DNA from: Riemerella columbina DSM 16469
Lineage (GTDB): Bacteria; Bacteroidota; Bacteroidia; Flavobacteriales; Weeksellaceae
DNA length: 64,000 nt
NCBI RefSeq assembly: GCF_000374405.1
Contig: NZ_KB894229.1
Span: 1 to 64,000, forward strand
Direction of reading: 5' to 3'
The notes under the pieces are model-generated. The model searched no databases and was not told where the DNA came from. It worked only from the letters and a program-made list of their open reading frames with translations. This document shows positions 26,455-28,899 of this stretch, one piece after another. A program made the translations under genes and the position numbers. The first letter of the stretch is position 1; each line of letters starts with the position of its first letter.

Positions 26455-27294
26455 TCATTTATTGGGCGGATAATTGATTTTCATATTTAAGTCAATAGGA
26501 TTATTATTATCTAAAATATTTTTTCTTATTTTTTTGCTCAACTGATTAAAATTAGGGTTCTCAATTGTATTCCCATCATCATCTTGGAGATAACCTTTAA
26601 TCTGCCCTGATTTGACCTCTTTATATGGATCTAAATAATAATCAATCTTTATTTTCTTTATTTTAGAATAATCAATTTTAACGGGCTTCATATGGTAATA
26701 GTTTTCAAGAAAATTACTAGTATCAAATTCCTCCTGAATATTTATATTTTGTACAAAAGAAAATATATAACTTTTCAGTTCATCATTTACTTCTAAAATC
26801 ATCCCTGGCAGTCCAGAAAATTTGTATGGCCCATAAGGCAATGGGATTTCTTGAGTAAACCATGCAACCCATTTTCTTTTTCCAAAATTACACTCGGCTT
26901 TTTGAGCTCTATATAAGCCAATATTTTTAAATTCATTCTTTATCTTCCATTCCATTTTATCGTTTGTTTTATAAGCATAAACATTCTGTAATAAATTTTC
27001 GTAATTCATATAAGTATTGGTACCAATTACTCTAGCGAATCTTTCTTCAAAAGGAGGAGTGGCAAAATAAAGAGATTTAGAGTTTTTGTTAATAGAATCA
27101 TATTTAACAAATTCATAACTGAATGATTTTACAGTTTTGGAATTTACATCAGTCACTATATAATCTTCCTGATATAAAGAATCACTAGCATTGCTTTTAA
27201 ACTTTAATTCATAAATAAAACGATGAGTTTGGCAATAAAGTGTACCATATATAAAACACAATATTAAAAAGTAGTATTTATCTTGATTTTTCAT
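26455..27294 (-). CDS. GLPGLI family protein
   Basis: 279 residues from ATG 27294. The N-terminal hydrophobic stretch (ending near TLYCQ) looks like a signal peptide. The signature block GPYKFSGLPGMILEVND is the family motif that gave GLPGLI (TIGR01200) its name; KWVAWFTQEIPLPYGP precedes it. These proteins are secreted or outer-membrane-linked and of unknown function, common in Flavobacteriia. Its ATG overlaps the stop of the upstream gene in an ATGA, so translation is coupled to the propeller-like gene. An ATG two codons earlier is the alternative start. Confidence 0.9.
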   Translation of the reverse strand: MKNQDKYYFLILCFIYGTLYCQTHRFIYELKFKSNASDSLYQEDYIVTDVNSKTVKSFSYEFVKYDSINKNSKSLYFATPPFEERFARVIGTNTYMNYENLLQNVYAYKTNDKMEWKIKNEFKNIGLYRAQKAECNFGKRKWVAWFTQEIPLPYGPYKFSGLPGMILEVNDELKSYIFSFVQNINIQEEFDTSNFLENYYHMKPVKIDYSKIKKIKIDYYLDPYKEVKSGQIKGYLQDDDGNTIENPNFNQLSKKIRKNILDNNNPIDLNMKINYPPNK

Positions 27295-27917
27295 ATCCAT
27301 TTAGTGCAATTATTATTATTATTATTATTATTATTATTATTATTATTATTATTATTATTATTATTATTATTATTATTATTTATTACATCAAAACTTTTCT
27401 GAATTTTAAAATCTTTACTGTAAAGCGTAAATTTTTGGTTTATACAATCAACGGTCATACATTCTTTTATGATGAAACCATTATCAACTGCCACACCTCT
27501 CGTATAAGGCATTTCAAGCTTTTTTTCTACTAAAACCTTATTATTTCTTAGATTTGATTTAAAGACTGCTCTTTTTGAAGGATAAAACATGAAAATTGAA
27601 TCCATAATAATGGTATAACTTTCTGGAAAATTATCTTTGATTAAAGTTCCATAGTCATAAGTTAAATATTCTTTTTTTCCTTCAATGATTGAAATATTCT
27701 TTTTTTTACTGTTTTGTAAAAATAATTCATTATCAAATACATCTAGCTTATTTGTACCTTTTTTTACATTAAAGGATGTCAACTCTTGAAAGTTCAATGA
27801 ATTCAAATATTCTCTATTGATTATTCTATTTTCATTTTTTTTACTTTTCGACCAAACTAGTAAAATTAATATTATACCAATTGCAATACTTATAATAATT
27901 ATTATATTTTTTTTCAT
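27291..27917 (-). CDS. Membrane-anchored, propeller-like protein with poly-Asn tail
   Basis: 208 residues from ATG 27917. MKKNIIIIISIAIGIILILLVW is a signal/anchor helix. Residues 45-180 show repeated beta-strand units (LDVFDNELFLQN, IMDSIFMFYPS, AVDNGFIIKE), as in 6-bladed beta-propellers of the BF3164-like type, but only about half of such a domain is present. It then enters 24 Asn residues coded by a pure (AAT)24 tract and ends CTKWI. It looks as if the C-terminal half was lost by recombination at the repeat. Assignment to the propeller class is an inference. Confidence 0.6.
   Translation of the reverse strand: MKKNIIIIISIAIGIILILLVWSKSKKNENRIINREYLNSLNFQELTSFNVKKGTNKLDVFDNELFLQNSKKKNISIIEGKKEYLTYDYGTLIKDNFPESYTIIMDSIFMFYPSKRAVFKSNLRNNKVLVEKKLEMPYTRGVAVDNGFIIKECMTVDCINQKFTLYSKDFKIQKSFDVINNNNNNNNNNNNNNNNNNNNNNNNCTKWI
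27309..27380. repeat. Trinucleotide microsatellite (ATT)24
   Basis: Twenty-four uninterrupted ATT units (72 bases), AAT on the coding strand, inside the propeller-like gene. Unit changes keep the reading frame and would change only the number of Asn. Confidence 0.97.
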
Positions 27918-27937
27918 AGTAATAGGTGGTATCAAAT

Positions 27938-27957
27938 AGATACCCCGAAGGGTATCT
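27938..27957 (-). promoter_or_regulatory. UUCG-tetraloop hairpin in the peptide operon
   Basis: A perfect 8-bp stem (27938-27945 with 27950-27957). In the leftward RNA the loop is UUCG, an exceptionally stable tetraloop. It sits 23 bases after the peptide stop and 20 before the next start, without a T run, so it more likely protects the 3' end of the peptide message or slows readthrough than terminates fully. Confidence 0.7.
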
Positions 27958-27980
27958 AAAAAATTAATTTCTGGCTATAC

Positions 27981-28157
27981 TTACTTTGATTTGTAAAACA
28001 CAGAATCGTTACCTACGTCGTAACAACAGTTAGTGCCAGATCCAGGACAGTTTCTTGTATTACATGGAGCATCATCAACTGAAGTCAGGGTTGATTGTGC
28101 AATTGATAATCCACCTCCAAATAAAAGGGCTGTAAATAATAAAATTATTTTTTTCAT
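27981..28157 (-). CDS. Small secreted Cys-rich peptide
   Basis: 58 residues from ATG 28157. A clear signal peptide (MKKIILLFTALLFGGGLSIA, cleavage expected near Ala20) is followed by a mature part of about 38 residues with four Cys (32, 37, 44, 45) in PCNTRNCPGSGTNCCYDVG. The frame is open upstream, but the longer form would bury the signal peptide. Not recognised as a named family. Its place before an anchored propeller-like protein recalls NVEALA peptides, which stand beside BF3164-like propellers in Bacteroides; the sequence itself lacks the NVEALA motif. Disulfide-linked peptide, bacteriocin-like or signalling roles are all open. Confidence 0.7.
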   Translation of the reverse strand: MKKIILLFTALLFGGGLSIAQSTLTSVDDAPCNTRNCPGSGTNCCYDVGNDSVFYKSK

Positions 28158-28279
28158 GATAATAAAAATTTGAAATTTATAAAAATATTTCCTTTTATTT
28201 TTCTTTGGGTTGAATAGGTAAAACTCCCGCAATTCATAGCTATTGAATAATCTAGATATCTATGACAAATATCATAAAA

Positions 28280-28309
28280 TATATTTATAAAAATTAGGAC
28301 AAATGTCTC
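28280..28309. promoter_or_regulatory. Possible regulator site upstream of the peptide gene
   Basis: The gap between the Crp-type gene and the peptide gene holds GACAAATATC (28264-28273) and GACAAATGTC (28299-28308); the latter has a GACA-N2-TGTC dyad, and the former lies in TATGA-N6-TCATA (28261-28276). They may be binding sites for the adjacent regulator. Weak evidence. Confidence 0.3.
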
Positions 28310-28314
28310 AATTT

Positions 28315-28899
28315 TTATAAAAATAACAATTTTGATTTAGTTCTTATTAAAGTTTTCCGTGAAATCGATAGAAAAGATGCTAAAATACTATCATTTATGC
28401 GATTTTTAAGAGTGGGGAAATTTTTATTAAAATAAATTAATTTTTCTAATGGCATGGAGGTAGATAAATGATGATAGCCCCTTATATTGATTGCCATATA
28501 TTTTTCTAAAATTAGTTGATAAATTTTAGCTAAGTTTTCAGACACCGAAAGAAGTTGGTCTAAATCTTTTTTAGTTATTTGAAGAATTTCAGCATTTTCA
28601 ATGCATTCTATCGTTTCATTATTGTCAATACCATTTTTGCGAAAACTATCCATGTTTGTTAGAAACCCATTTTCCCATGCTATTCTTCGAGTAAATTCAT
28701 TTCCATTGTGGTCAATATAAAAAGACCTCAGCAAACCTTTATTTACAAAAAAAAGTTTGTTGCAAATAGAGTTTTTTTTAATTAGATTTGTCTTCTTTTT
28801 AATATTGAGAGGTTCAAAGTAAATCTTTATCATTGCTTTTTCCTTTTCTGAAATTTTCCCATATTTTTCTAGTAAAATAAAAAGTTGTTGATATTGCAT
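28315..28899 (-). CDS. Crp/Fnr family transcriptional regulator
   Basis: 194 residues from ATG 28899. The N-terminal cyclic-nucleotide-binding-like barrel has FFVNKGLLRSFYIDHNGNE, typical of the Bacteroidota branch; the C-terminal part (NDSILASFLSISRKTLIRTKSKL) is the winged-helix recognition region. No Cys cluster of an Fnr iron-sulphur type is seen. An earlier in-frame ATG at 28932 lies over the promoter box and is rejected. It is next to the secreted-peptide gene, which it may control. Confidence 0.88.
   Translation of the reverse strand: MQYQQLFILLEKYGKISEKEKAMIKIYFEPLNIKKKTNLIKKNSICNKLFFVNKGLLRSFYIDHNGNEFTRRIAWENGFLTNMDSFRKNGIDNNETIECIENAEILQITKKDLDQLLSVSENLAKIYQLILEKYMAINIRGYHHLSTSMPLEKLIYFNKNFPTLKNRINDSILASFLSISRKTLIRTKSKLLFL

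Follow-up and report, generated by a model that had tools for sequence, protein, structure and literature searches.

Which function could a short, cysteine-rich secreted peptide serve that is encoded between a transcription regulator and a propeller-like protein? The question is raised by a locus of Riemerella columbina DSM 16469 in the window, by which we mean the whole stretch of 64,000 nucleotides that was analysed. An initial annotation had proposed that peptide, Crp-type regulator, propeller-like protein and GLPGLI protein form an undescribed secreted-peptide cassette. The idea of a cassette stands in our analysis, but its composition does not: the key partner, MauE, has been deleted from the window, the propeller is truncated, and the GLPGLI protein is apparently lineage-specific.

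The locus and its peptide

The elements of the locus, given here in the order of the minus strand, are the following.

28315..28896, minus strand: Crp/FNR-type transcription regulator, 193 aa (PF00027, 31.1 bits, cut-off 27.5)
28158..28314, minus strand: crp-peptide intergenic region (mean column identity to Cruoricaptor 91%, against 85% for the whole locus)
28290-28315, minus strand: terminator-like inverted repeat in the crp-peptide intergenic region
28262-28275, minus strand: weak palindrome ATGATATTTGTCAT in the crp-peptide intergenic region, a candidate operator
27981..28157, minus strand: secreted peptide, 58 aa (78% identity to Cruoricaptor, dN/dS 0.26)
27937..27958, minus strand: hairpin with a 9-bp stem directly 3' of the peptide gene, a possible attenuator
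27291..27917, minus strand: truncated propeller-like protein, 208 aa (N-terminal membrane anchor, residues 1-185 of ~335, then poly-Asn)
27309..27385, no strand: (ATT)25 microsatellite at the deletion junction (tandem repeat search)
27278..27310, minus strand: mauE remnant, last codons IALNGYEKSR plus stop (matching IALNKYEKSK of Cruoricaptor mauE)
26455..27300, minus strand: GLPGLI family protein (TIGR01200, 143.2 bits, cut-off 50), its start overlapping the mauE remnant

The peptide, which is present once in the genome (a draft assembly of 2.44 Mb in 67 contigs), has the properties originally ascribed to it, with a signal peptide in approximately residues 1-20 and a mature part of about 38 residues that carries four cysteines in the pattern C-x4-C-x6-CC-Y-D. 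The only other of 296 family genomes with a clear relative is that of Cruoricaptor ignavus DSM 25479 (L062/L093), where 45 of the 58 residues are identical. Cruoricaptor also provided the only peptide relative among the matches listed in a scan of GTDB species genomes, a listing from which the genomes closest to that of the window may be missing, and searches of plasmid and viral collections returned no relative of either the propeller or the peptide. Codon comparison of the two peptide genes gave a dN of 0.13 and a dS of 0.52, hence the ratio of 0.26, against 0.17-0.24 for the other genes compared in the locus. Judged by these ratios, the small frame encodes a conserved protein that is under purifying selection; the doubt attached to it at the outset, that it might lack conservation at the protein level, is thereby removed.

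Profile scans placed neither the peptide nor the 208-aa frame in any family above cut-off. The DUF6520 profile (PF20130) scored 14.5 bits on the peptide, under its curated cut-off of 25.4, and a profile built from 43 mauE-linked peptides could not separate it from shuffled sequences; we therefore rejected the peptide as a member of DUF6520. The NVEALA peptides of Bacteroides are small secreted peptides encoded beside BF3164-like propellers. Our peptide lacks their motif, as had been noted, and has no match to such a family up to an E-value of 10; the cassettes described below further differ from NVEALA systems in having MauE as their constant partner.

The assignment of the regulator to the Crp type is supported by its PF00027 score as far as the cNMP-binding domain is concerned. 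It shares 164 of 193 residues with its Cruoricaptor counterpart (dN/dS 0.17) and has relatives adjoining mauE-peptide pairs at two further loci (L096 and L106), which match HTH_Crp_2 weakly, a profile of the C-terminal HTH without a match in the window protein. The conserved stretch between crp and the peptide gene may hold the binding site of the regulator. The hairpin behind the peptide gene is predicted to fold with -14 kcal/mol (z-score -4.3, against -3.9 for its Cruoricaptor counterpart) and may serve to keep expression of the peptide above that of the machinery encoded downstream. Searches of the locus gave no Rfam match, and promoter motifs of the Bacteroidetes type were not enriched.

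The GLPGLI protein was likewise identified correctly, by a wide clearance of the TIGR01200 cut-off. Its gene has possible start codons for methionine at 27300 and 27294, and 77 of 93 residues are identical to a Cruoricaptor fragment. As no relatives were found in 59 related loci, it looks like a lineage-specific neighbor.

The apparent deletion and the origin of the locus

The Cruoricaptor contig (NZ_FQYI01000020.1) encodes, in this order, crp, the peptide, the propeller, mauE and the start of the GLPGLI gene. It shares gene order, 85% nucleotide identity and the cysteine pattern of the peptide with the window, but its propeller-like protein (334-339 aa) and its mauE (PF07291, 103 bits, cut-off 27) are intact. 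The GLPGLI gene is interrupted there near the end of the contig, apparently by an insertion element, and by our own reading there are transposase-like frames at both contig ends.

Against this reference, the anchored propeller-like protein of the initial annotation exists only as an anchored N-terminal half, from a broken gene. It matches residues 1-185 of its Cruoricaptor counterpart with 78% identity, then ends in a poly-Asn tail read from the (ATT)25 tract, whereas the intact protein runs about 150 residues further and is followed by mauE. At the nucleotide level the two loci cease to align at GATGTAATA within the propeller gene, and similarity is regained only in the final codons of mauE. 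Missing from the window are approximately 870 bp, comprising the C-terminal half of the propeller, in which its best-conserved part lies, and almost all of mauE, of which only a remnant of 10 codons is left in the window; the site is occupied by the ATT repeat of about 77 bp. We disregarded, as meaningless, an alignment that paired the poly-Asn tail with the C-terminal half of the propeller. The overlap between the propeller frame and the GLPGLI gene, which had been taken for translational coupling, is present, but it was created by the deletion, which removed the sequence between them; in Cruoricaptor the GLPGLI gene overlaps the end of mauE instead.

The genome has no second tract like (ATT)25, and such a repeat within a coding region is unusual for a bacterium. 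The tract is possibly a deletion scar or an assembly fault. The most economical account is that sequence was deleted at a TAATA microhomology and that the repeat expanded afterwards. Alternatively, repeat-rich stretches could have been misjoined in assembly, the strain in reality having an intact propeller and mauE. We consider such an artefact rather unlikely. It would agree with the draft state of the assembly, with a junction formed by a near-perfect, genome-unique microsatellite of 77 bases, of a type that short-read assembly mishandles, and with the TAATA-like sequences that the absent segment carries at either end in Cruoricaptor. However, the missing part of the propeller is found nowhere else in the assembly, no contig carries the mauE of the cassette, and the junction has the form expected of a microhomology deletion with subsequent repeat expansion. 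Three matches to the MauE family elsewhere in the genome belong to other genes. If correctly assembled, the window copy is in effect a naturally occurring deletion mutant for the partner genes.

The locus was most likely acquired horizontally, as judged from composition and sequence divergence. Its GC content is 23-28%, compared to 34-40% in the flanks, and its identity to Cruoricaptor is 85% with a dS of approximately 0.4-0.5, whereas a core ATPase gene is only 66% identical and saturated at synonymous sites. Moreover, the peptide is absent from five congeners, in which the genes downstream of rpsB are unlike those of the window and variable from one to the next. A putative DNA repair gene beside the locus (DUF4130 / TIGR03915, window 25531-26289) has no match in the five congeners either; the variable region may therefore be larger than the cassette itself.

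MauE, peptides and propellers across the phylum

Significant relatives of the Cruoricaptor propeller occur in 61 of the 296 family genomes, counting its own and that of the window. In all 19 loci that we inspected, the propeller was fused to MauE in a protein of about 500 aa, with a secreted four-cysteine peptide encoded directly downstream. Among 395 genomes of the phylum, the MauE profile matched 39 and DUF6520 matched 31, and 29 of 31 DUF6520 matches above cut-off lay within 2.5 kb of a MauE match. We further scripted a search for small frames in which two or more cysteines follow a signal-like N-terminus and which lie within 300 bp downstream of a gene. Such frames followed 41 of 50 mauE genes, compared to 7 of 314 other genes (Fisher 5e-38, a value that is not a count of independent events, since the mauE loci are related by descent). 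The seven cases among the other genes include the window peptide and four genes that are MauE relatives without a CxCGG string. Five of the 50 mauE loci had no downstream peptide by the script, and many of the linked peptides have two cysteines only. At one locus (L096), Crp regulator, mauE, DUF6520 peptide and propeller all lie on one strand. The linkage of mauE and peptide genes across the phylum is thus well supported.

The fusion loci of Flavobacteriales (for example L063, L071 and L124) resemble the cassette in encoding a MauE with a CSCGG motif, a homologous propeller domain and an adjacent secreted cysteine peptide. They differ from it in that MauE and propeller form one protein, the peptide is downstream and longer (86-97 aa, C-x5..7-C-x7..8-C-x16..20-C), and S9 peptidase and SusC/D-like genes take the place of GLPGLI.

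A further match comes from another family (L118, genome G426), where a secreted peptide of 56 aa with exactly the pattern C-x4-C-x6-CC-x-D is encoded directly upstream of propeller and mauE. Its pairwise E-value to the window peptide is 2e-4; 11 of 5000 shuffled sequences scored as well against the latter and 3 of 5000 against the Cruoricaptor peptide. At a further locus (L108, genome G520), a peptide in the same position has a looser cysteine pattern and no significant sequence similarity, the pattern being all they have in common. Both loci share with the cassette the order peptide-propeller-mauE, yet an RND pump gene comes next, and we saw neither GLPGLI nor Crp genes. It had been considered that homologues of the peptide might occur without its neighbors; those we found occur only beside the same ones, in Cruoricaptor and at L118. 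By eye, a six-frame reading of 949 kb gave no other frame with the cysteine pattern of the window peptide after a signal peptide.

That the protein is a propeller rests on a chain of homology. Neither the window nor the Cruoricaptor protein directly matches PF17170 (6-bladed β-propeller, DUF5128, cut-off 22.9), but the L118 homologue does so with 28.1 bits, and the pairwise E-value to this homologue is 9e-11. An AlphaFold model from a two-sequence alignment was too poor to use (pLDDT 38), and sequence searches gave no convincing PDB relative of either MauE or the propeller.

A possible function of the cassette

It has been speculated that disulphides in methylamine dehydrogenase are made by MauE; decRiPPter results for Streptomyces place MauE genes with cysteine-rich candidate precursors, for which modification by MauE was proposed (PMC7794033). 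As far as their description in that source allows a comparison, the Streptomyces clusters resemble our cassette in the MauE homologue beside a cysteine-rich candidate precursor; they are actinobacterial, their precursors have at least 8 cysteines, and the passages on them mention no propeller (PMC7794033). Apart from this remark on Streptomyces, our searches of the open-licence literature gave no description of a MauE-peptide pairing.

Given these proposals for MauE and the linkage across the phylum, we favour an interpretation in which the peptide, once exported, is oxidised by MauE and docked by the propeller. We think it fairly probable that the window holds a horizontally acquired, deletion-damaged cassette of this kind. 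When intact, it would consist of the Crp-type regulator, the four-cysteine peptide, exported by the Sec pathway, the membrane-anchored β-propeller and MauE, a thiol-redox protein of the membrane that carries a CSCGG motif. We infer that, once the peptide has reached the periplasm, MauE would install its disulphides, aided either by a thioredoxin-like protein or by the quinone pool. The propeller would be a periplasmic docking module that holds or recognises the peptide during oxidation, and such handling would account for its frequent fusion to MauE. After this step, the finished peptide would either be released or act on the cell surface. With mauE and half of the propeller lost, the window peptide should stay unfinished, unless a different MauE encoded in the genome takes over.

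A redox role for the peptide itself, as an electron carrier comparable to MauD and a partner of MauE instead of its cargo, seems unlikely to us. At least one close cysteine pair is kept in all linked peptides, and some cassettes have thioredoxin-like genes nearby (L107). Yet the peptides are highly variable outside their cysteines, lack a CxxC thioredoxin motif and can be as small as about 35 residues when mature, for which reasons cargo fits better than an enzyme. Still less probable, in our view, is a secreted scavenger of metal or cofactor, binding metal through its cysteines without disulphides and retaken by neighboring SusC/SusD-like transporters. SusD/SusC-like genes do recur beside DUF6520 cassettes, along with S9 peptidase or thioredoxin-like genes, but the Cruoricaptor and window loci have no such transporter next to them, L118 and L108 run into an RND pump instead, and no metal site is in evidence. 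That the genes are merely unrelated neighbors moved together by transfer, as the AT-rich island beside transposase-like frames in Cruoricaptor and the absence of GLPGLI linkage elsewhere might suggest, is highly improbable, because peptide, propeller and mauE are linked again in distant parts of the phylum, where the flanking genes differ.

Oxidation of the peptide by MauE, with docking by the propeller, thus remains our preferred reading. Through the linkage, DUF6520, a family of unknown function, and the short orphan peptides gain a constant partner in MauE and hence a testable biochemical role, the oxidation of a secreted cysteine peptide, which points to a peptide theme across Bacteroidota. 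A broader reading, in which the phylum has widespread, unnamed systems of secreted disulphide-bonded peptides (DUF6520 and shorter types) with MauE as their dedicated membrane oxidase, often fused to a peptide-handling β-propeller, the peptides acting as intercellular signals, toxins or metal scavengers, we put forward only tentatively.

Several features recur in the surroundings of MauE genes. Beside the peptide gene at L063, L064, L071, L107 and other MauE-peptide loci, genes for S9 peptidases or thioredoxin-like proteins lie on the opposite strand, with SusD/SusC-like genes behind them. Three other genomes of the phylum have an AcrB-type RND pump gene near a propeller-mauE locus (L118, 1860-5033; L149, 9729-12908; L150, 5360-8506); the pump may be a partner in export or resistance. 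Chryseobacterium-like loci have, upstream of mauE, a small frame of 73-82 aa that begins like a lipoprotein and has an end resembling D-x-x-x-W-R (L063, 6818-7054; L065, 6739-6987; L072, 6469-6690; L113, 4632-4880). Finally, between MauE and a lipoprotein-like propeller in genome G418 (L119, 4601-4994) lies a small frame with a signal peptide and one in-frame cysteine; several further cysteines are encoded in an overlapping frame, so this is possibly a frameshifted peptide gene.
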